This document shows positions 9-40,364 of a DNA stretch of 41,317 bases, piece by piece (position 1 is the stretch's first letter; each line of letters starts with the position of its first letter). Made by a program: the position numbers and the translations under genes. Under the pieces are notes generated by a model that worked only from the letters and a program-made list of their open reading frames with translations, did no database searches and was not told the DNA's origin. This DNA comes from a virus. The stretch is taken from positions 1 through 41,317 of IMG/VR virus record IMGVR_UViG_3300047319_000683; one strand, written 5' to 3'.

Positions 9-1325
9 GTGCAGAAACACGGACGCCGTAATACCTATAGCGAACTGTCGCTACCCATCTCCCCGATTGCTGTCTCGCGAGAGAGTTCCGATAAGCCCCC
101 CTACCAGGTGCCGAGCATGGCGGAGATCAGTGCGATTCCGTGGAACGGCTACACGGCTATCTCGACGTTTAGCGGCTGCGGCGGATCTTCACTCGGCTAC
201 AAGCTGGCCGGATTCCGGGTCGCCTGGGCGAATGAGTTCGTGCCAGCAGCTCGGGACACCTACCGGGCGAATGCGCCTGAGACGATCCTTGATCCGCGCG
301 ACATTCGGGAGATTACCCCGGAGTCGATCCTCGCCGCGCTCGGTCTAACGGTCGGTCAGCTCGATGTGCTTGATGGCTCGCCGCCCTGCGCGTCGTTCTC
401 TACCGCTGGCAAGCGTGAGGCAGGCTGGGGCAAGATCAAGACCTATTCCGACACGAAGCAGCGTACCGATGATCTCTTTTTCGAGTACGCGCGACTCGTG
501 CGAGGAATCCAGCCGAGAATCTTCATTGCGGAGAATGTCTCTGGCCTCGTGAAGGGTACGGCGAAAGGGTATTTCAAAGAGATTCTGCGCGAACTTAAAG
601 AGTGCGGTTATCGGGTCGAAGCGCGTTTACTCGATGCGCAATGGCTCGGAGTTCCGCAGATGCGCCAGCGCGTGATCTTCTTCGGCGTGCGCGAGGATCT
701 CGACGCAACTCCCCGTTTCCCGAAGCCGCTACCGTATCGCTATAGCGTGCGCGACGCGCTACCGTGGATCATTGCGCAGGGGGACAATGGTGGCTTTGGG
801 CACGGAAGTCTCCCGGAGACTTCCGTGCCCAGTCCAACGATCGGCGCCGGACCACAGACCGGCAATGGGGCCTACCCCCCCTCGCTGGTGTCCGCGCGTG
901 CCATGAATGACACGCGCGGACAGGCATCCTATAGCATGGGTGATGTGACAGATATTCCTGCTCCATCAATAGTTGCAAGTGGGCACCATCTATGGGTCGA
1001 AGAGGCGAATGGTCTCAACTCGCAAGGACTCGGTCCTGGCGAGCAATCCGATAAGTATTACTCGCTGGTGCGAACTGATCCAGAACGCCCGAGCCCAACG
1101 GTTACCCAGCGCGGGGGTGATGGTGGCGACGCCACCATCACCCATCCGACTGAACGGCGGAAATTCACGATTGCAGAACTCAAACGGATCTGTGCTTTTC
1201 CGGATGACTTCGTGCTGACCGGCACCTACGCCCAGCAATGGGAACGGCTCGGACGCGCGGTGCCACCCTTGATGATGGCAGCCATTGCCGAGCAGGTGCG
1301 TGTAGTGCTGGAGGAGATTCCCTAA
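9..1325 (+). CDS. C5-cytosine DNA methyltransferase with altered motif X; candidate DNA carboxymethyltransferase
   Basis: C5-cytosine DNA methyltransferase. Numbering from the GTG at 9, motif I is FSGCGG (54-59), motif IV is GSPPC with catalytic Cys127, motif VI is ENV (175-177) and motif VIII is QRVIFFG (220-226). The target-recognition region (about 240-380) has repeated PSPT-like units. Motif X reads LGRAVPP, with Arg416 where the family has an almost invariant Asn (GNAVPP). That position is the one I recall being changed to Lys in engineered M.MpeI to accept carboxy-SAM. The frame is open to the window's left edge, so the start may lie upstream; ATG 117 (MAEISAIPWNG) is also plausible and lies just before motif I. 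The stop overlaps the next start (TAATG), and a CmoA gene follows two genes on. Family is certain; use of carboxy-SAM is inferred. An ordinary 5-methylcytosine enzyme remains possible. Confidence 0.93.
   Translation: MQKHGRRNTYSELSLPISPIAVSRESSDKPPYQVPSMAEISAIPWNGYTAISTFSGCGGSSLGYKLAGFRVAWANEFVPAARDTYRANAPETILDPRDIREITPESILAALGLTVGQLDVLDGSPPCASFSTAGKREAGWGKIKTYSDTKQRTDDLFFEYARLVRGIQPRIFIAENVSGLVKGTAKGYFKEILRELKECGYRVEARLLDAQWLGVPQMRQRVIFFGVREDLDATPRFPKPLPYRYSVRDALPWIIAQGDNGGFGHGSLPETSVPSPTIGAGPQTGNGAYPPSLVSARAMNDTRGQASYSMGDVTDIPAPSIVASGHHLWVEEANGLNSQGLGPGEQSDKYYSLVRTDPERPSPTVTQRGGDGGDATITHPTERRKFTIAELKRICAFPDDFVLTGTYAQQWERLGRAVPPLMMAAIAEQVRVVLEEIP
798..830. repeat. Perfect inverted repeat, 16-bp arms, 1-nt centre
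   Basis: The left arm GGGCACGGAAGTCTCC (798-813) and its exact reverse complement (815-830) are separated by one base. It lies inside the coding sequence for the target-recognition region of the C5-methyltransferase, in frame and without a stop. It could form a strong mRNA hairpin or a DNA cruciform. Confidence 0.9.
889..922. repeat. Perfect inverted repeat, 12-bp arms, 10-nt loop
   Basis: The left arm TGTCCGCGCGTG (889-900) pairs exactly with 911-922. This is the second of three perfect palindromes within 350 bp of the methyltransferase target-recognition region. Confidence 0.88.
1115..1143. repeat. Perfect inverted repeat, 14-bp arms, 1-nt centre
   Basis: The left arm GGGTGATGGTGGCG (1115-1128) pairs exactly with 1130-1143 around a single A. 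This is the third palindrome in the same coding region, and its near-zero loop matches the layout of the one at 798-830. Confidence 0.88.
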
Positions 1326-2692
1326 TGTGCGGTATAGCCGGGGGATATGGTGCGGGCCTGGCGCGGATGCTTCCGCTACTCCGCCACCGAGGGCCAGATG
1401 CCGAAGGGTGCCAGCAGATCGGTCCGCTGATGCTGCTCCATACCCGTCTCGCGATCATCGACTGCCACCCGCGCAGTAATCAGCCGTTTACCTATGGACA
1501 GACGACTATTAGCTATAACGGCGAGCTCTGGAATTTCCGCGAGGTGCGGGCTCTCCTCGCGCAGGAGGGCTGCTCGTTCCAGACGAACGGGGATACGGAA
1601 GTTATGGCTGCTGCCCTGGACCGATGGGGCGCGGCGGCGCTCCCCCGATTCGATGGCATGTTTGCTGTGGCCTGGACCAAGGATGGTCAGGAGGTCTCAC
1701 TTGCGCGGGATCGCTATGGCGAGATCCCCCTCCACTGGGCACCGGGGGCCTTTGCCTCGGAACGCAAAGCCCTGCTGGGAATGGGGATCGCGGGACATCT
1801 TATTCAGGATGTCCCGCCCGGTGGTCTCCTCACCCTCTGCCCGTCCGGTGCTCGCATCACGACGTGGTATGCCCTCCCTGCCAGAGAGCAGAGAATCGAC
1901 CGTCTGACCGCAGCGGATCGGCTACGAACCCTGCTGGAGGAGGCCGTCACGGCGCGGCAGATCGCAGATGTCCCTCTCGCTACGCTATTCTCCGGGGGAT
2001 TGGATAGCGCCACCATTGCCGCAATCCTCGTCCGCTCCTTCCCCGGTATCCCGTCCTATATCGCGGTCTATGATCCCCGCTCCCCGGACCTGCGGGCGGC
2101 CCGCATCGGTGCGGAGGCGCTGGGCCTGACTCTGCGGGAGGTCCGCGTTCCATCCCCCACGGCGGACGACCTCGCCGGGGTCGTCCGGGTGATTGAAATG
2201 TCATCAAAGGCTCAGGTCGAGATCGGCTGGCCCTGTTTGGCGCTGGCCCGTGCCATGCAGGCAGACGGCATTCGTGTGATCTTCAGCGGAGAGGGGAGTG
2301 ATGAGCTCTGGGCGAGTTACGGATTCTCCTACCACGGTATTCAGCAGGAGGGCTGGGGGCCGCATCGGCGGAAGCTGATCCGCGCCCAGGCTGCCAAGAA
2401 TTTCGCCCGCTGCAACAAGATTTTCATGGCGGCCGGGATTGAGTGCCGCCTACCGTTCCTCTCCCCGCCATTAGTCGAATATGCACTTTCCCTACCACAG
2501 GCTACCGTGCAGGACCGGGGGCGGCCGAAAGCCGTGCTCCAGGATGCTGTAGGGGACTGGCTCCCCTCCCGTCTGCGGGACCGTCCGAAACTCGCCTTTC
2601 AGGATGGGCTCGGCATGAAGTCTGCTGCTGCCCAGGCCGTGGCCCAGCCGGCCCGTTTCTATCGTCAGGAATATGCCCGCACCTTTGGGTGA
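1325..2692 (+). CDS. Asparagine-synthetase-like glutamine-dependent amidotransferase (AsnB family)
   Basis: Two-domain class II glutamine amidotransferase of 455 aa. The start at ATG 1325 puts Cys2 at the mature N-terminus (MCGIAGG), as this family requires. Glutaminase motifs follow: RHRGPDAEG (20-28), RLAIID (41-46), YNGE and NGDTE. The synthetase domain has the PPi loop SGGLDS (223-228) and SGEGSDE (321-327), whose Glu is catalytic in E. coli AsnB. Known members adenylate a carboxylate and replace AMP with ammonia from glutamine. Length is a little short of E. coli AsnB (about 550 aa). It overlaps the methyltransferase stop and precedes the CmoA-like gene by 15 nt, so I infer that its acceptor is a carboxymethyl group on DNA. 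Making free asparagine, or modifying a tRNA or sugar, are alternatives. Confidence 0.92.
   Translation: MCGIAGGYGAGLARMLPLLRHRGPDAEGCQQIGPLMLLHTRLAIIDCHPRSNQPFTYGQTTISYNGELWNFREVRALLAQEGCSFQTNGDTEVMAAALDRWGAAALPRFDGMFAVAWTKDGQEVSLARDRYGEIPLHWAPGAFASERKALLGMGIAGHLIQDVPPGGLLTLCPSGARITTWYALPAREQRIDRLTAADRLRTLLEEAVTARQIADVPLATLFSGGLDSATIAAILVRSFPGIPSYIAVYDPRSPDLRAARIGAEALGLTLREVRVPSPTADDLAGVVRVIEMSSKAQVEIGWPCLALARAMQADGIRVIFSGEGSDELWASYGFSYHGIQQEGWGPHRRKLIRAQAAKNFARCNKIFMAAGIECRLPFLSPPLVEYALSLPQATVQDRGRPKAVLQDAVGDWLPSRLRDRPKLAFQDGLGMKSAAAQAVAQPARFYRQEYARTFG
1790..1817. repeat. Inverted repeat, 10-bp arms, 8-nt loop
   Basis: GCGGGACATC (1790-1799) pairs exactly with 1808-1817. It lies inside the AsnB-like gene near the glutaminase/synthetase junction. 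There is no T-tract, so it does not look like a terminator. Confidence 0.7.
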
Positions 2693-2707: not shown

Positions 2708-3427
2708 ATGTCTGCAAGTAGTCTCGGCCATCTTCCAACCGGCGATCACTGGGCATTCGACGCATCGGTTACGGAGGTGTTCGATGATATGCTCACCCGC
2801 TCGATTCCAGATTATCTCGAAATGCGCGCACTCGTGCTGGATCTCGCCTCGCGCTTCCAGCAAGACGGTACCGATATCGTTGACCTCGGCTGTTCGCGTG
2901 GCGAAGCGATGGCCTCACTACTCGCGCGATTCTACGGTCGCAATCGGTTCGTCGGGGTTGAGGTTTCTGAGCCGATGCTTATTGCTGCACGGGATCGCTT
3001 CGCTCGGGAAATCGACCGCGGTCTCGTTGCAATCCAGCATCTTGACTTACGTGAGACCTATCCGCAGGTGAATGCTTCCGTCACGCTCTCGGTGCTGACC
3101 TTGATGTTCGTGCCACTCGAGCATCGGGCGCGCGTCGTTCGCGATATGTACGACCATCTCCTACCTGGTGGCGCACTGCTCCTTGTAGAGAAGATCCTCG
3201 GTTCCTGCCCCGCGCTCGATGAGCGGATGGTTGCATCCTATTACGATTTCAAGCGGCGCAACGGCTACAGTCAGGAGGAGATCACGCGCAAGCGGCTAAG
3301 TCTCGAAGGAGTGCTAGTGCCAGTGACGGCCGCGTGGAATGAGGACCTTCTTCGCATGGCCGGCTTTACGATGATTGACACCTTCTGGCGTTGGCAAAAT
3401 TTTGCCGGCTGGGTCGCGGTTAAATGA
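2708..3427 (+). CDS. CmoA-like carboxy-S-adenosylmethionine synthase
   Basis: Class I SAM-binding protein of 239 aa that aligns with E. coli CmoA (247 aa) over nearly its whole length: WAFDASVTEVFDDMLTRSIP near the N-terminus, SAM motif VDLGCSRGEA (58-67), LLPGGALLLVEK, and FKRRNGYSQEEITRKR (181-196). Arg196 matches CmoA Arg199, the residue that contacts the transferred carboxylate in carboxy-SAM, as I recall. CmoA converts SAM plus prephenate to carboxy-SAM, which CmoB then uses on tRNA uridine 34. No CmoB is present in this window, but a DNA methyltransferase with a basic substitution in motif X lies two genes upstream. ATG 2708 has a GGAAGG-type ribosome site. The stop overlaps terS (ATGA). 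A related SAM methyltransferase is the main alternative. Confidence 0.9.
   Translation: MSASSLGHLPTGDHWAFDASVTEVFDDMLTRSIPDYLEMRALVLDLASRFQQDGTDIVDLGCSRGEAMASLLARFYGRNRFVGVEVSEPMLIAARDRFAREIDRGLVAIQHLDLRETYPQVNASVTLSVLTLMFVPLEHRARVVRDMYDHLLPGGALLLVEKILGSCPALDERMVASYYDFKRRNGYSQEEITRKRLSLEGVLVPVTAAWNEDLLRMAGFTMIDTFWRWQNFAGWVAVK
3393..3406. repeat. 14-bp perfect AT-centred palindrome
   Basis: GGCAAAATTTTGCC is self-complementary. It lies in the last codons of the CmoA-like gene, about 20 nt before the terS start. It could be an operator for the packaging genes or simply coding sequence. Confidence 0.4.
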
Positions 3428-3915
3428 GCGGGAAGCCGGGCCGCAGTGGACGTCGCCCACAGCCGACCACCCTCAAGCTATTGAACGGCAACCCCGGCGG
3501 GCGCCCACTCCCCACCAATGAGCCGAGGCCTACGCCGAAGCTGCCGCCGGTGCCGTCCTACCTGTCCGACGTGGCCAAGGCAGAATGGCGCAGGACGGGT
3601 AAGCGGCTGCTCGCTATGGGGATCATGACGGAGCTCGACAGCAGCGCCCTGGCGGCCTACTGCCAAGCGTATGCCCGCTGGGTCGAGGCCGAGGAGATGC
3701 TGAACAAGCACGGCGTGTTGTGGAAGCTGAACGACAAAGACGGCATCGCCATGTTCAACCAGAGCCCGTACCTGTCCATTGCCAACAAAGCCTTAGAGCA
3801 GATGCAAAAGCTTCTCGTAGAGTTCGGCATGACGCCCAGCGCGCGGGCTCGGGTGAAGGCGGTGCCGGTCCCTGAGAAGGACGAGTTCGAGAACTTCCTT
3901 GCCCGCAACAACTAG
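3424..3915 (+). CDS. terS: Terminase small subunit, P27 family
   Basis: 163 aa. The N-terminus has the P27-family signature: a basic GRSGRRPQPT stretch, then LKLLNGNPGGRPLP, then a helical body with AKAEWRRTGKRL and LAAYCQAYARW. Small terminase subunits recognise the packaging site and recruit the large subunit. ATG 3424 overlaps the upstream stop as ATGA, so translation is probably coupled to the CmoA-like gene. The last codons overlap the terL start by 17 nt. Confidence 0.93.
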   Translation: MSGKPGRSGRRPQPTTLKLLNGNPGGRPLPTNEPRPTPKLPPVPSYLSDVAKAEWRRTGKRLLAMGIMTELDSSALAAYCQAYARWVEAEEMLNKHGVLWKLNDKDGIAMFNQSPYLSIANKALEQMQKLLVEFGMTPSARARVKAVPVPEKDEFENFLARNN

Positions 3916-5662
3916 GAAACGCCCCCCGGTAGCCGCACTACCCGCGCACCCCGTCACGCAGTACGCGCAGGACGTGCTGGCGGGGCGTATCCTCGCGGGT
4001 CGAGCGGTCCGACTCGCCTGCCAACGCCACCTGGACGACCTCGAGCACGGCGCCGAGCGCGGGCTGTGGTTCGATGAGGCGGCCGCGGATCGGGTGGTGA
4101 CCTTCTTCTCCCATCTGCGGCTGTCGGAAGGCGAGCACGCCGGCAAGCCGTTCACCCTCCAGCCCTGGCAGGTATTCGTGGTGGGTTGCCTGTTCGGCTG
4201 GAAGGGGGCCGATGGCTTCCGTCGTTTCCGATATGGGTATATCGAGGTCGGCAAGGGAAACGGTAAAAGCCCGATGGCGGCGGGGATCGGCTTGTATCTG
4301 CTCTGCGCTGATGGAGAAGCGTCGGCCGAGGTTTATACCGCCGCCGTGACGCGGGATCAGGCGCGGATCAGCTTCCGCGATGCGCAGCGCATGGTCGAGA
4401 ACAGCCCCGCGCTCAGCAAACGCATTAACGTGCTGGTCAACAACCTGGCGCACGATGACTCGGGGTCGTTCATGCGCCCGCTCAGTTCCGAGGGGCGGAG
4501 CCTGGACGGCAAGCGCCCGCATGGGTTCGTGATTGACGAGATTCACGAGCATCCCAATGCGACCGTAGTCGATAAGATGCGGGCGGGCACCAAGGGTAGG
4601 CGGCAGGCGCTCGGGGTCGGGATCACCAACAGCGGCTATGATCGCAACTCCGTCTGTTTCCAGCAGCACACCTACACGCTGCAAGTGCTGGAGGGCGCGC
4701 TCGCCAACGATGCCTGGTTTGGCTACGTCTGTCAGCTCGACGTGTGTGAGGAATGCCGAGCGGCCGGCAAGCCGAGCCCGACCGAGGGCTGTCCCGACTG
4801 TGACGATTGGCGCGATGAGTCGGTATGGCTGAAGGCGAACCCGAATCTCGATGTGTCCATCACGCGCAAGTATTTGCGTGAGCAGGTCGATGAAGCGGTG
4901 GGGATGCCCGCCAAGTCTGGCATCGTCATGCGCCTCAACTTCTGTATCTGGACCCAATCGCTGATGAAGTGGCTGCCCATCGATCGCTGGCAGGCGGGCA
5001 ACACGCCGTTCACGCGGGAGTCGATGAAGGGGCGGCGCTGCTATGGGGGGCTCGACCTCGCGCGGGTACACGACCTCAGTGCGTTCGCTCTGGTGTTCCC
5101 CCCGGTGGAGGACGGCGAGCGGTGGAAGTGCTTGCTGCGCTTCTGGTGCCCGGAGGAGGACATCCCAGGACGCGCTCAGCGGGATCGCGTGCCCTATGAC
5201 CTGTGGGCGCGGCAGGGCTGGCTGGAGCCGACCGATGGCAATACGACCGACTTCGGGTTTATCGAGAAGGCGATTGTCGAGGACGCCAGCTACTTCCGCA
5301 TCGAGGAAGTGGCCTTCGACCGCGCGTTTGCGGATTCGCTGGTGCAGACATTAGCCGACAAGCATGGGCTCACTATGGTCGACTTCGGCCAGGGGTTCAT
5401 CTCGATGGCGGCGCCCACGATGGAGCTGGAGCGGATGGTGCGCAGTGCGGAGCTCCAGCATGGTGGCAACCCGGTGCTCGATTGGTGCGCGAGTAATGTG
5501 GTGGTCAGGACCGACCCCGCCGGGAATCTCAAGCCCGACAAAGAGGCCAGCCCCGAACGGATCGACGGCATCGTTGCGCTCATCATGGGGTTGGCGCGCG
5601 CCAAGGTGGCGGTGCCGCAGGAGTCGGTGTATGCCGAGCGTGGCATCCTGGTGTTCGGCTGA
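3899..5662 (+). CDS. terL: Terminase large subunit
   Basis: 587 aa ATPase/nuclease that cuts concatemers and drives DNA packaging through the portal. Walker A-like motif GKGNGKS is at 118-124 and Walker B VIDEIHEH at 211-218. The nuclease domain begins around residue 385 with YGGLDLARVHD, and a second acidic cluster lies at EEVAFDRAF. A Cys-rich stretch (CQLDVCEECRAAG...CPDC) near residues 280-300 may bind metal. The start is TTG 3899 inside terS; no better start exists near the N-terminus. The stop overlaps the next start (TGATG). Confidence 0.95.
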   Translation: MPATTRKRPPVAALPAHPVTQYAQDVLAGRILAGRAVRLACQRHLDDLEHGAERGLWFDEAAADRVVTFFSHLRLSEGEHAGKPFTLQPWQVFVVGCLFGWKGADGFRRFRYGYIEVGKGNGKSPMAAGIGLYLLCADGEASAEVYTAAVTRDQARISFRDAQRMVENSPALSKRINVLVNNLAHDDSGSFMRPLSSEGRSLDGKRPHGFVIDEIHEHPNATVVDKMRAGTKGRRQALGVGITNSGYDRNSVCFQQHTYTLQVLEGALANDAWFGYVCQLDVCEECRAAGKPSPTEGCPDCDDWRDESVWLKANPNLDVSITRKYLREQVDEAVGMPAKSGIVMRLNFCIWTQSLMKWLPIDRWQAGNTPFTRESMKGRRCYGGLDLARVHDLSAFALVFPPVEDGERWKCLLRFWCPEEDIPGRAQRDRVPYDLWARQGWLEPTDGNTTDFGFIEKAIVEDASYFRIEEVAFDRAFADSLVQTLADKHGLTMVDFGQGFISMAAPTMELERMVRSAELQHGGNPVLDWCASNVVVRTDPAGNLKPDKEASPERIDGIVALIMGLARAKVAVPQESVYAERGILVFG

Positions 5663-5856
5663 TGTGGCGAGTGCTGATTTCCATTGTCGAGGCGCTGGCG
5701 TTGGCCGCGCTGGCGGGCATCTTTGCGGTGCTCGGTTGGTTGGCGGGCGAGCGTGGTCAATGGGGGCAGGTCGTGCTGTGTGTGGTGGTGTTCGGGCTGA
5801 CCACGATGGGCGAACTGTCGGCTATCGCGGATCTGGTGGAGTGGCAACATGCGTGA
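5662..5856 (+). CDS. Small two-helix membrane protein
   Basis: 64 aa with two hydrophobic segments (about 5-27 and 36-54) separated by GERGQWG. It overlaps the terL stop by one base and the neuB-like start by eight bases, so it is co-translated with both. I do not recognise the family. It could be a membrane factor linked to the sugar cassette or a small phage membrane protein of other function. Confidence 0.7.
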   Translation: MWRVLISIVEALALAALAGIFAVLGWLAGERGQWGQVVLCVVVFGLTTMGELSAIADLVEWQHA

Positions 5857-6757
5857 ACTGATGATCGGCGGGCACCGCATCGCGGATGACGAACCGGCCT
5901 TTGTCGTGGCTGAGATTGGCTGTAATCATCAGGGGTCGGTGCAGACCGCTTGTGAATTGATGCGGGCAGCGGCGGAGTGTGGATGCGACGCGGTGAAGTT
6001 TCAGAAGCGCGACCTCGACTGGTGGGCTGAGCGTGATCCGAAGTGGAACGAGCCCTACCACTCCGAGCACGCCTTCGGCCCCACCTACGGCGATCACCGG
6101 GCGGCGTTGGAGTTCGGGGCTGATGAATACGAGTTCCTGAAGCTCCGAGCGGAGAATCTCGGGCTGATGTTCCTGGCGACCGCGTTCGATGTGCCGAGTG
6201 TGGGGTTCCTGTCGGATCTCGGGGTGCCGGCGCTCAAGATCGCCAGCGCCTCCATCGTCAATCGCCCGCTGCTCGAGGCGGCCGCGTTCACCGGGCTGCC
6301 GTTGATCGTAAGCACCGGGGGCGCGACCGTACAGGAGGTTGACGACGCGCAGAGATTGATCTATTACAACCCCCACCATCCTCCATTGGCATTGATGCAC
6401 TGCGTCAGCTCATATCCCTGCGAAGCAAGGGATATGCAGCTCCGTGTGATTGAGAGTCTGAGGGCGTCCTACCCGGAAACTGTCATCGGGCTGTCGGATC
6501 ACTACAGCGGCATTCTGACCGGCCCGCTCGGCTGGATGCTGGGTGCAAGGATCTTTGAGAAGCATTTCACCCTGCATCGGGGCTGGAAGGGGTCCGATCA
6601 AGCCTGGAGCCTGGAGCCGCACGGACTGCGCTCACTGGTGCGGGATCTCAAGCGTACCCGTGAATCGCTCGGGGATGGGGTCAAACGGCGATTGGACATC
6701 GAGGTCGCGCCGTTGGTCAAGATGGGGCGCACGGATTTATTGGAGGTGGCACCCTGA
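5849..6757 (+). CDS. neuB: NeuB-like nonulosonate (sialic acid family) synthase, TIM barrel without SAF domain
   Basis: 302 aa. Motifs run in NeuB order: VVAEIGCNHQGS (19-30), AVKFQ (48-52), ALKIASASI, LIVSTGGAT (152-160), MHCVSSYPC, GLSDHYSG (214-221) and EKHFTL (237-242). The two metal-binding His are His218 and His239. NeuB enzymes condense PEP with an N-acylated hexosamine to make sialic, legionaminic or pseudaminic acid. Family members are about 340-350 aa with a C-terminal antifreeze-like SAF domain; here the chain stops right after the barrel (KMGRTDLLEVAP). It begins inside the small membrane gene, and its stop overlaps a CTG-started cupin gene. The exact sugar cannot be told from sequence. 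Confidence 0.9.
   Translation: MRELMIGGHRIADDEPAFVVAEIGCNHQGSVQTACELMRAAAECGCDAVKFQKRDLDWWAERDPKWNEPYHSEHAFGPTYGDHRAALEFGADEYEFLKLRAENLGLMFLATAFDVPSVGFLSDLGVPALKIASASIVNRPLLEAAAFTGLPLIVSTGGATVQEVDDAQRLIYYNPHHPPLALMHCVSSYPCEARDMQLRVIESLRASYPETVIGLSDHYSGILTGPLGWMLGARIFEKHFTLHRGWKGSDQAWSLEPHGLRSLVRDLKRTRESLGDGVKRRLDIEVAPLVKMGRTDLLEVAP
6411..6436. repeat. Inverted repeat, 9-bp arms, 8-nt loop
   Basis: CATATCCCT (6411-6419) pairs with 6428-6436 inside the neuB-like gene. There is no T-tract. It is another intragenic hairpin like those in the methyltransferase genes. Confidence 0.6.
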
Positions 6758-7155
6758 CGACGATTAGCGCCTATATCCCCCGCACACTGGAGCGGGATTG
6801 GGGAACGGAAGAGATCATTGCCGAGGGGCCCGGGTACTGCGGCAAGATCCTGAAGTACACGGCAGGGAAGGCGGGCGGACTCCAGGCGCATACCTGGCGC
6901 GTGGAATCCTTCCATCTGGTATCGGGCGTTGCCTATGTCGATTCCGATAATGGAGAGGGGAGACTCACACGCATCCGTATGATGGCGGGGCAGACCCTCC
7001 ACATTCCGAGCGGCGCCGCTCATCGCTTCGTGGCGATTACCGATTGTGTGGTGTTCGAGGTGAGCACCAGCGCAGACGCCGACCGCGTGCGGATGGAGAC
7101 CCAGTACGGCGAGTCCGAGGTGGGTGGACTGCCGAGTACGGAGGCATATGCCTGA
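6754..7155 (+). CDS. Cupin-fold protein of the sugar cassette, CTG start
   Basis: 133 aa with a single cupin domain. Motif 1 is GGLQAHTWRVESFHLVSG, with one His of the usual HxH replaced; motif 2 is GQTLHIPSGAAHRF. The N-terminal WGTEEIIAEGPGYCGKIL resembles cupins encoded beside neuA/neuB genes, which may act as sugar isomerases, epimerases or binding proteins. No ATG, GTG or TTG opens this frame before residue 50, but CTG 6754 lies 6 nt after GGAGGT and overlaps the neuB stop as CTGA. That is the same layout as the other coupled starts here, so I prefer CTG. The exact reaction is unknown. Confidence 0.78.
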   Translation: MTTISAYIPRTLERDWGTEEIIAEGPGYCGKILKYTAGKAGGLQAHTWRVESFHLVSGVAYVDSDNGEGRLTRIRMMAGQTLHIPSGAAHRFVAITDCVVFEVSTSADADRVRMETQYGESEVGGLPSTEAYA

Positions 7156-7879
7156 GCGCATCGTGGCCCTGATCCCCGCTCGGGCGGGCAGCAAACGTAT
7201 CCCTGGCAAGAATACCCGCGAACTGGCGGGGCATCCGCTGCTCGCCTATGCCATCGCCGCCGCGCAGGAGGCTGGGATCTTTGAGCGCATCGTGGTGAGC
7301 ACGGACAGTGGGGTGACCAGGGATCTAGCGATCCAGTATGGAGCGGTGGCAATCGCACGTCGCGCGGAACATGCGCAAGATTACAGCCCGGATCTCGACT
7401 GGGTAGAACATGCTATGACTTGGGAGATGTACAACGAGTCGGCCGAGGCCTTCTGCATCCTGCGCCCGACCTCCCCCTTCCGTCGTGGTGAGTGGATCAA
7501 GGCCGCGTGGGACTGCTTCCGCCAGTACGGACGGGCTGACAGCCTGCGCGCCATGCGGCCGGTGTCCGAGCACCCTGGCAAGATGTGGCGAGTCGAGCGG
7601 GTGACGAGCAGCGTGCCGTTGCTGCCGTTCAGCGGGGATCGTGCCCCCTGGCACAGCATGCCGACGCAGGAGCTGCCCCCGGTATTCGTGCAGACCGCCG
7701 CGCTGGAGATCGCGTGGACGCGGGTACTTCCCGACTCCATCAGCGGCAGTGTGGTGCTGCCGTGGGTCTGTGCCAAGGATGACCCAATGGCGCTCGACAT
7801 CAACACGCCCGAGGATTGGGCACGAGCTGAGCAGATGGCGGCCGAGCATCCCGAGTGGCTACCGGAGGTGCGGCGGTGA
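7148..7879 (+). CDS. neuA: CMP-nonulosonate synthetase (NeuA-like cytidylyltransferase)
   Basis: 243 aa. The N-terminal IPARAGSKRIPGKN (9-22) is the nucleotide-binding signature of NeuA/KdsB-type CMP-sugar synthetases. VVSTDS, LRPTSPFR and a C-terminal ALDINTPEDW also fit NeuA/PseF/LegF. The reaction couples CTP to a nonulosonic acid to give CMP-sugar for a glycosyltransferase. ATG 7148 has GGAGG just upstream and overlaps the cupin stop by 8 nt. No NeuC-type epimerase is in the window, so the hexosamine precursor probably comes from the host. Confidence 0.92.
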   Translation: MPERIVALIPARAGSKRIPGKNTRELAGHPLLAYAIAAAQEAGIFERIVVSTDSGVTRDLAIQYGAVAIARRAEHAQDYSPDLDWVEHAMTWEMYNESAEAFCILRPTSPFRRGEWIKAAWDCFRQYGRADSLRAMRPVSEHPGKMWRVERVTSSVPLLPFSGDRAPWHSMPTQELPPVFVQTAALEIAWTRVLPDSISGSVVLPWVCAKDDPMALDINTPEDWARAEQMAAEHPEWLPEVRR

Positions 7880-8229
7880 GGGCAGGGGATCATTACGCGG
7901 TGGATCTAGACGGCGTGCTGGCTCATGCCGCAGACACGCACTATGTGCCTGGGTGGATCGGCCCCCCGATCCCGGCAATGGTGGATCGAGTCAAGGCGTG
8001 GCGCGCGCAAGGGATCCCCGTGGTGATCTTCACGGCGCGGGTGTCGAAAGAGGGGCGATCCCCCATCTGGCGAGAGTATCCCGCCATCGAAGCGTGGTGC
8101 CTGGAGCATCTGGGCGAAGTGCTGCCGATTACCTGCGAGAAGTCGTGGCGCACGGCCCGTATCTACGATGATCGGGCTATTGCCGTGGAGCGAAACACCG
8201 GCCGACTATTGAGTGAGGAGCCTGCATGA
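7876..8229 (+). CDS. Small HAD-family hydrolase
   Basis: 117 aa. HAD motif I is VDLDGVLA (Asp10 and Asp12), motif II region is VVIFTARVS, and motif IV is IYDDRAI followed by VERNTGRLL. This compact form, with IGPPIPAMV and AWCLEHLG between the motifs, is frequent in phage genomes. The start is GTG 7876, seven nt after GGAGG and overlapping the neuA stop (GTGA). In this place it could remove a phosphate from a sugar intermediate, but that is only context. Confidence 0.83.
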   Translation: MRAGDHYAVDLDGVLAHAADTHYVPGWIGPPIPAMVDRVKAWRAQGIPVVIFTARVSKEGRSPIWREYPAIEAWCLEHLGEVLPITCEKSWRTARIYDDRAIAVERNTGRLLSEEPA

Positions 8230-9029
8230 TTACAGCGCGGGAGCGGACCAGGATCTACGACGTGGGGCTGGTGGATTATGAGCCCGCCCACATAGAGATG
8301 TTCCTCGAGCCGGAGAACGCCTACCAGGGGCCGCTCCGTCGTTTGCGGCAGAACTGCTGTGAGAAGGAGCCGTTTACGGTCGCCTTCATCGAGAGCATCC
8401 CCCCGGGCGGCGTGCTGTACGACGTGGGCGCCAACGTGGGCGGCTATTCGCTGGTGGCGGCGGCGCGGGGATTGCAGGCGGTCGCCTTCGAGCCGATCCC
8501 ACAGAATGCAGAGATGCTGCTGGCGAATCTCCAGCTCAACGGCTGGACAGATCGCGTCATCGTGATGCAGCAAGGGCTCGCTACCGTCTCGGGGCTGGTT
8601 TGGGTCCACTACGCCGATACCCGCCCCGGCTCAGCCACCTTTGCCTGGGGCGAGGTGAAGCCGAATCAACGGCCCGGCTTCGGCTGGCACTCGGTGCTGA
8701 TCCCGGTCTCGCCCCTCGATGAGCTGGTGGGGCGCTACCATTTGCCGCCCCCTACGCATCTGAAGATCGACGTCGACGGCAATGAGCAGGCCGTGCTGGG
8801 CGGGATGTCGCAAGTGCTGGCGCTCCCCTCGCTGGTGGGCATCATGATCGAGCTCCAGCCCGACCGAGAAGCCGAGATCGTGGGTATGCTGAACGCGGCG
8901 GGGTGGAGCATTGTCGAGCGGTGGGATGTGCGCAACATCGCCTACGCGCGCCTGGAGCGGGTGGTGGAGGAGCCTACGGCAGAGGAGATCAAGCCCAGTC
9001 GGCGGAAGAATGGTCACGTAAAGAGTTGA
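8226..9029 (+). CDS. FkbM-family SAM-dependent methyltransferase
   Basis: 267 aa. Motif I YDVGANVGGYSL, then AFEPIPQN, and the FkbM hallmark LKIDVDGNEQAVLGGM are all present. FkbM enzymes O-methylate sugars and polyketides. It is the last enzyme of the neuB-neuA cassette and overlaps the HAD gene (ATGA), so methylation of the sugar or glycan is the likely role. The C-terminal tail (VEEPTAEEIKPSRRKNG) is charged and probably disordered. Confidence 0.88.
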   Translation: MITARERTRIYDVGLVDYEPAHIEMFLEPENAYQGPLRRLRQNCCEKEPFTVAFIESIPPGGVLYDVGANVGGYSLVAAARGLQAVAFEPIPQNAEMLLANLQLNGWTDRVIVMQQGLATVSGLVWVHYADTRPGSATFAWGEVKPNQRPGFGWHSVLIPVSPLDELVGRYHLPPPTHLKIDVDGNEQAVLGGMSQVLALPSLVGIMIELQPDREAEIVGMLNAAGWSIVERWDVRNIAYARLERVVEEPTAEEIKPSRRKNGHVKS

Positions 9030-39546: not shown

Positions 39547-39726
39547 ATGATCTACACGCCGATTCGGGAAGCCAAGGCGGACGTGACCTACTGGCTCGAG
39601 GAGCTCCAGCGCCTGCTCCGGGAGCCGAGCCGGGATTGGCGCTGGCACGAGCGGTGGATGGAAACGCATGAGCGATGGGTGGCGAGTCATGCGCGGTACG
39701 AGATGCTGATGCGGAGGCGCAACTGA
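39547..39726 (+). CDS. 59-aa basic helical protein (unknown)
   Basis: ATG 39547 after ACGGAG. Trp/Arg/Glu-rich helices (LREPSRDWRWHERWMETHER). Its end overlaps the next gene, and GGAGG for that gene lies in its last codons. Not recognised. Confidence 0.58.
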   Translation: MIYTPIREAKADVTYWLEELQRLLREPSRDWRWHERWMETHERWVASHARYEMLMRRRN

Positions 39727-40364
39727 GCTGGCCGTACTACGAGCGCGGCGGCATCACTATCTACCACGGCGATGCGCGTGACATCGTGCCGAGCCTTGAC
39801 TTCGACGTGGTACTTACGGACCCGCCCTACGGGACTGGCCAGAAGATCGCCTATCGCCCGTACAAGGACACGATGGACAACTGGGTGGAGTTGATGGCCT
39901 GGCTGCTCGCCCTGCCGCAGCCGATGGCATTCACGATGAGCCATACGCGGCTATTCGACTTGCCGGTGCGCCCGCAGTGGATGGGCTGCTGGGACAAAGT
40001 ATTTACGGGCGGGATCGTGCATATCGGAGCATCTCCATCTTGGGAGCCGATCTGCTTCTACCACCTGCCAGCGGGCGACCGCGGACGCCCTCGGTGGGAT
40101 GACATCTTCCGCGTGCCCGTAAATGGGCACGCGGAAGGCTTTGTCTCGCAGATGGCTATCGCGCATCCCTGCCCCAAGCCGGTCAACCTCTACCGTCGGC
40201 TAATCGAGGTGCTGCCGGAAGGCGTGATCCTCGATCCCCTGATGGGCTCCGGCACGACCCTGCGCGCAGCGAAAGACCTCGGCAGATCAGCTATCGGCAT
40301 CGACCTATCCGAGGCGTACTGCGAGATCGCTGCCAAGCGATTAGCCCAGGATGTGCTGCTATGA
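39723..40364 (+). CDS. DNA adenine/N4-cytosine methyltransferase (beta-type motif order), CTG start
   Basis: 213 aa. Motif IV DPPYGTG (33-39) precedes motif I-like DPLMGSGTTLRAA with GIDLSE near the C-terminus, the order of beta-class amino-methyltransferases. DPPY favours N6-adenine, but N4-cytosine cannot be excluded. The best start is CTG 39723, five nt after GGAGG and overlapping the upstream TGA as CTGA; no ATG or GTG with a ribosome site fits. No matching restriction enzyme is nearby, so it is probably an orphan used for protection or regulation. Confidence 0.9.
   Translation: MSWPYYERGGITIYHGDARDIVPSLDFDVVLTDPPYGTGQKIAYRPYKDTMDNWVELMAWLLALPQPMAFTMSHTRLFDLPVRPQWMGCWDKVFTGGIVHIGASPSWEPICFYHLPAGDRGRPRWDDIFRVPVNGHAEGFVSQMAIAHPCPKPVNLYRRLIEVLPEGVILDPLMGSGTTLRAAKDLGRSAIGIDLSEAYCEIAAKRLAQDVLL
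40106..40137. repeat. Perfect inverted repeat, 13-bp arms, 6-nt loop
   Basis: CTTCCGCGTGCCC (40106-40118) pairs exactly with 40125-40137 in the middle of this methyltransferase gene. Its right arm (GGGCACGCGGAAG) resembles the left arm of the palindrome at 798-830 in the other methyltransferase gene. Confidence 0.85.

Follow-up and report, generated by a model that had tools for sequence, protein, structure and literature searches.

A cmoX-cmoY-cmoA gene set at the start of a phage sequence

The window analysed here, a stretch of 41,317 nt (positions 1 to 41,317 of the IMG/VR virus record IMGVR_UViG_3300047319_000683), opens with three adjacent genes on the plus strand. The product of the first, at 9–1325 (+), matched PF00145 with an E-value of 4.5e-56, which identifies it as a C5-cytosine methyltransferase (C5-MTase). 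We annotate it as a putative cmoX-type DNA cytosine-C5 carboxymethyltransferase with the C5-MTase fold, since SpCmoX (PDB 8YF3) was its best PDB match both by sequence and by fold. Residue numbers are counted from the GTG at position 9; the reading frame is open to the first bases of the window, which leaves the start codon in doubt, and the gene may in truth begin upstream of the window. The second gene, at 1325–2692 (+), overlaps the stop of cmoX by one base and encodes a CmoY-type amide ligase, composed of a glutaminase (GATase) domain and an asparagine-synthetase-like AMP-forming domain (PF13522, PF13537 and PF00733; match to 1CT9).

The third gene, at 2708–3427 (+), encodes a homologue of the carboxy-SAM synthase CmoA, as judged from TIGR00740, matches to 4GEK and 1IM8, and alignment. 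Its match to TIGR00740 was full-length (E 4e-47) but scored 160.8 bits, under the curated cut-off of 193.3, and we therefore file the protein as a CmoA homologue and not as a formal TIGR00740 member. Alignment placed its Arg196 (3293–3295) on Arg199 of E. coli CmoA, which forms a salt bridge with the carboxylate of carboxy-SAM (Cx-SAM) (PMC3663124). The E. coli CmoA and AsnB reference sequences used in this work are consistent with the PDB alignments. The CmoA-like proteins encoded beside CmoX in related loci (L001, L046, L059 and about 40 others) mostly have Glu at the Arg199 position, preceded by a Lys that hardly varies; the active SpCmoA has Glu, too.

Directly downstream of cmoA, genes for the small and large terminase subunits occupy 3424–5662 (+; PF05119, PF20441 and PF03354), which marks the window as part of a phage genome. 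Terminase genes were frequent neighbours in the relatives as well, with TerL matches in 61 loci. Between terminase and portal (5849–9029, +) lie genes for a NeuB-type nonulosonic acid synthase, a PseF-like cytidylyltransferase (7124–7879) and an FkbM methyltransferase (8226–9029), which perhaps serve virion glycan synthesis; among all fetched loci, NeuB gave one weak match only (L288). A second DNA methyltransferase, of the N6/N4 type (PF01555, E 4.8e-21), is encoded near the other end of the window at 39675–40364 (+).

An Arg in motif X and the match to SpCmoX

The closest solved protein by sequence was 8YF3 (E 9e-69), i.e., SpCmoX of Synechococcus phage S-B43. It was also the top hit of a fold search (Z 38.5, rmsd 2.6 over 312 residues; runner-up Z 32.6) with a predicted model of the window CmoX, whose mean pLDDT is 75, with low values over its N-terminal stretch, at residues 257–335 and in some of the catalytic loop. 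SpCmoX, described in December 2025, moves the carboxymethyl group from Cx-SAM onto cytosine C5; its Arg350 contacts the carboxylate of Cx-SAM, the wild type takes Cx-SAM only, and the R350N variant takes neither SAM nor Cx-SAM (PMC12783734).

Motif IV of the window enzyme reads S124-P-P-C127 (378–389, +) and aligned with SPPC of SpCmoX and PPC of M.HaeIII, Cys127 being the catalytic residue. Motif X, at 1251–1268 (+), reads G-R416-A-V-P-P (codons GGA CGC GCG GTG CCA CCC), with Arg416 at 1254–1256. Pairwise phmmer alignments matched Arg416 to Arg350 of 8YF3 and, in M.HaeIII and mouse DNMT1, to the Asn of GNAV. By its place in the PDB sequences, the motif X Asn has the number 374 in M.MpeI (GNS) and 304 in M.HhaI; the rows for these two enzymes were taken from the database, in a comparison made with an M.SssI query. 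Translation and alignment thus agree with the original prediction, according to which GRAVPP carries Arg in place of Asn, residue 416 corresponds to M.MpeI residue 374, and the engineered M.MpeI N374K variant alters this same conserved Asn. The accompanying statement that nearly all C5-MTases have Asn at this position was too broad for phages, where 105 sampled viral MTases, forming a separate family, have Met there and no CmoA.

An origin of GRAVPP by chance or through a frameshift was ruled out, because the frame is open and Arg416 sits in a conserved motif: ER-x-G-R-(A/S)-VPP was present in every Arg-type homologue with a readable motif, and Glu412 was likewise always kept. Glu175 of the ENV motif and Arg219/Arg221 were invariant in the alignment of the window enzyme with SpCmoX, in the active site of which a Glu and an Arg point toward the cytosine ring (PMC12783734).

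The modules of the window and of S-B43 have in common the C5-MTase fold, SPPC, the motif X Arg, and an adjacent CmoA and AMP-forming ligase. However, CmoX identity is only about 40%, the gene order is X-Y-A in the window and A-Y-X in S-B43, and SpCmoY, which ligates glycine (PMC12783734), has no glutaminase domain, whereas the window CmoY has one. Furthermore, the equivalent of Arg199 is present in the window CmoA but is replaced by Glu in the alignment row of SpCmoA. The order CmoX, GATase-type CmoY, CmoA is found in gp123–gp125 of Streptomyces phage TurkishDelight, with 56% CmoX identity and the KAQVEI motif of the window ligase (see below). That module is uncharacterised and, in contrast to what can be seen here, is preceded by two ParB-like genes, a region that for our locus lies beyond the window.

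Linkage of motif X Arg to CmoA

The published survey of this enzyme family retained Arg-containing sequences only (PMC12783734). We gathered relatives by similarity, from the CmoA side, and by DNA patterns for other motif X residues, defined the close clade by a profile score >400, and removed the loci obtained with CmoA queries (L166–L243) before the association test. Among the close homologues from residue-blind viral scans, CmoA was nearby for 126 of 131 Arg types and for none of 16 non-Arg types (Fisher 2e-17; this value and all Arg/CmoA counts treat related sequences as separate). With the pattern-found relatives added, the comparison became 126/131 vs 0/57 among the matches listed, and for loci flanked by 3 kb or more on each side it was 46/47 vs 0/13. 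A second collection, consisting of bacterial and archaeal genomes, had CmoA at 22 of 23 Arg loci and at no Asn locus. Searching the whole contigs of 26 non-Arg relatives and of the five Arg exceptions (31 records) returned no CmoA, in a search that had no positive control of its own; a profile from the same CmoA alignment matched 215 ORFs locally. No natural Lys at motif X appeared among the matches listed from a scan with an Asn/Lys DNA pattern.

Many Arg homologues that lack a cmoA partner and make 5mC had been named in advance as evidence against the use of carboxy-SAM. Arg homologues lacking CmoA in the available sequence were rare, amounting to 5 of 131 viral and 1 of 23 genomic cases, and they may be explained by a host CmoA, by contig ends or by another activity. 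The homologue SpCmoX and the association with CmoA both support the proposal that Arg at the position of M.MpeI residue 374, next to a cmoA-like gene, signals carboxy-SAM use. Ligase genes were near 46 of the 126 Arg loci with CmoA and near none of 54 Asn loci. Arg and Asn types have other recurrent neighbour families in common, suggesting that the module changes within one kind of phage locus.

Whether the motif X residue had switched more than once was addressed with a tree of 169 rows. Arg and Asn types were interspersed on it; the best tree had 8 changes, and no fewer than 4 changes fell on branches with strong support. The tree is slightly informed by the trait itself, since the motif X columns were left unblanked in 22 of the 169 rows and residue 128 in all. 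Independent pairs followed CmoA, an average of 3.9 out of 4 supported pairs changing in the same direction and none in the opposite one (p 0.125; with only four supported independent switches, a sign test cannot reach 0.05).

Several CmoX copies, with CmoA adjacent where examined, were present in single assemblies of Verrucomicrobia (G032–G034; L482, L484, L485, L490 and others). At L485, the one locus whose surroundings were examined, CmoX has terminase and portal genes as neighbours. These loci likely represent many related prophages, a simpler explanation than a bacterial, non-phage carboxymethylation, which we considered and set aside given the terminase and portal genes of L485.

A second residue that changes together with motif X

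Column-by-column comparison pointed to further positions that differ between the two types. Of 131 Arg types, 130 had Ala or Ser at the position of Ala128 (390–392, +), the residue next after the catalytic Cys and the equivalent of Gln82 in M.HhaI; the 54 Asn types all had Gln, Val or Thr there. Ser147 in the catalytic loop (447–449, +) was shared by all 131 Arg types, whereas Asn types mostly had Glu or His at this position, and the column of Thr153 held mostly Asn or Gln in the latter. The two main positions have both been targets of engineering. M.HhaI Q82A/N304A is an engineered pair that accepts extended or bulky SAM analogues (PMC10666283); the equivalent positions, A128 and R416, are replaced naturally in the window enzyme, whereas M.HhaI Q82A/N304A has Ala and not Arg at motif X and was used with synthetic side chains (PMC10666283). 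M.MpeI N374K gained Cx-SAM use through a single basic substitution, and the SpCmoX authors themselves draw the comparison with it (PMC12783734). It has a basic residue at the identical motif X position, but it is artificial, the residue is Lys instead of Arg, and the catalytic Cys is followed by Gln (PCQ). Ala or Ser after the catalytic Cys may give space for a larger donor. A small residue at the Gln82 position is probably insufficient alone, because a separate phage family with Ser at this position and Met at motif X has no CmoA; the motif X Arg stays the diagnostic residue.

Additionally, we identified other combinations of the two residues. Asp after the catalytic Cys together with Leu or Met at motif X occurred on three separate contigs, in the CmoX relatives L053 (976–2007, +), L070 (7863–9143, +) and L562 (− strand). 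CmoA was not found for L053 and L070, and since these two are not neighbours on the tree, the pair of residues may have arisen twice; the use of another cofactor by this type is possible. In L293 (1106–2173, +) and about 100 other loci, most of them obtained by a pattern scan, the catalytic Cys is followed by Ser and motif X has Met (GMSVPP). This family is often located beside a conserved ParB-like gene and terminase, and a search within 3 kb found neither CmoA nor any other widely common enzyme. A single protein, L086 (220–1257, +, on a contig of 2980 bases), has Asp at motif X (GDSVPP) and Gln after the catalytic Cys and is the sister of an Asn-type protein.

A glutaminase-type ligase between cmoX and cmoA

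A pathway role of the intervening gene (1325–2692), the co-change at A128 and the prior publication of the family had not been part of the original prediction. The window CmoY keeps all of the GATase residues C1, R49, N74, E76 and D98 as well as the SGGLDS loop, and the five residues are kept in nearly all of 17 aligned CmoY relatives. It has the two-domain architecture and the glutaminase and PPi-loop residues of E. coli AsnB (1CT9), and it scored 269.2 against TIGR01536 (cut-off 267.1). According to mutagenesis work, the TTIRAS segment of AsnB (Thr322, Thr323 and Arg325) serves aspartate activation. This segment is absent from the window CmoY, in which KAQVEI (2207–2224, +) takes the place of AsnB VTTIRAS; KxQxEI was present in 17 of 17 aligned GATase-type CmoY proteins. 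Unlike asnB, moreover, the window gene lies in a DNA-modification operon. With a catalytic-Cys glutaminase and an AMP-forming domain, encoded beside CmoX and CmoA, the window ligase belongs with the published glutaminase-type cluster. In the ligase survey this was the second-largest cluster, with glutamine-derived ammonia as the predicted substrate, and the authors' trial of it failed as no soluble protein was obtained (PMC12783734).

Proposed pathway and alternative readings

The three genes of the window very likely form a phage cmoX-cmoY-cmoA operon whose products hypermodify cytosine. CmoA (2708–3427) would convert SAM and prephenate to carboxy-SAM, an activity known for its homologues. 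In CmoX (9–1325), Cys127 would attack C6 and the carboxymethyl group would go to cytosine C5; Arg416 would form a salt bridge with the donor carboxylate, a role known for SpCmoX, and the small Ala128 beside Cys127 would make room for the larger donor. CmoY (1325–2692) would use ATP to activate (adenylate) the new carboxylate and would then amidate it with glutamine-derived ammonia, giving 5-carbamoylmethylcytosine. Glutamine is the most likely source of the ammonia because CmoY retains a full glutaminase domain. The modified base would protect the phage DNA from restriction, as suggested by the finding that 5cxmC in DNA confers HhaI resistance (PMC12783734). Judging from sequence, we predict with considerable confidence that the window proteins have the activities of their homologues, and Arg416 serves well to indicate the cofactor that the window enzyme is predicted to use. 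A primary amide formed from ammonia is, from the domain content of CmoY, its somewhat favoured product.

A variant of the same pathway, less probable but well worth considering, has CmoY join an amine other than ammonia, e.g., glycine as in S-B43, or leaves part of the 5cxmC unamidated. The acceptor of AMP-forming ligases varies, idle glutaminases can occur in the asparagine-synthetase superfamily, and that of the window could be one of them. SpCmoY does ligate glycine (PMC12783734), but it has no GATase domain, whereas the window ligase keeps Cys1, Arg49, Asn74, Glu76 and Asp98, and the survey assigns ligases of its cluster to glutamine-derived ammonia (PMC12783734).

It is improbable that the window CmoX uses both cofactors and yields 5mC in addition to 5cxmC: the gain of Cx-SAM use by M.MpeI through one substitution (PMC12783734) speaks for such an enzyme, but Ala128, Ser147 and Glu412 fit the pattern seen in Arg types, an exclusive class of enzymes, and SpCmoX R350N lost both activities (PMC12783734). 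Most improbable of all is that the window CmoX is an ordinary 5mC methyltransferase that tolerates the Arg, cmoA being a chance neighbour or a tRNA gene. Phage motif X is not always Asn, as the Met family without CmoA illustrates; however, CmoA stood beside 126 of 131 Arg types and none of 57 non-Arg types among the matches listed, the second collection agrees, and wild-type SpCmoX rejects SAM (PMC12783734).

Beyond the carboxymethylation pathway itself, we tentatively raise a wider proposal, as a possibility rather than as the expected outcome. R416 and A128 might together be one setting of a two-position cofactor selector that has been flipped repeatedly in phage C5-MTases with gain or loss of CmoA, the setting of the window feeding a glutaminase-type ligase and thus leading to 5-carbamoylmethylcytosine; Asp with Leu/Met (three proteins) and Ser with Met (about 100) may then mark other donors.

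The cofactor role of the motif X Arg is already published, and the window is a further cmoX-cmoY-cmoA module of the published family. In the main texts of open-licence PubMed Central papers we did not find three of the present results: the comparison with Asn types and the repeated linked switching that it revealed, the post-Cys residue that switches along with motif X, and the KAQVEI signature of the glutaminase-type ligases. Others may nevertheless have reported them. As far as found in the literature searched, 5-carbamoylmethylcytosine, the base to which the glutaminase-type ligase points, is without a reported measurement. The R350N variant alone was dead with SAM, and natural Asn types also have Gln, Val or Thr at the post-Cys site. 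One readable residue, checked against Asn controls absent from the published survey, predicts which cofactor is used by a phage enzyme that modifies DNA cytosine, and the post-Cys residue adds a stricter annotation signature as well as a design test for cofactor choice.
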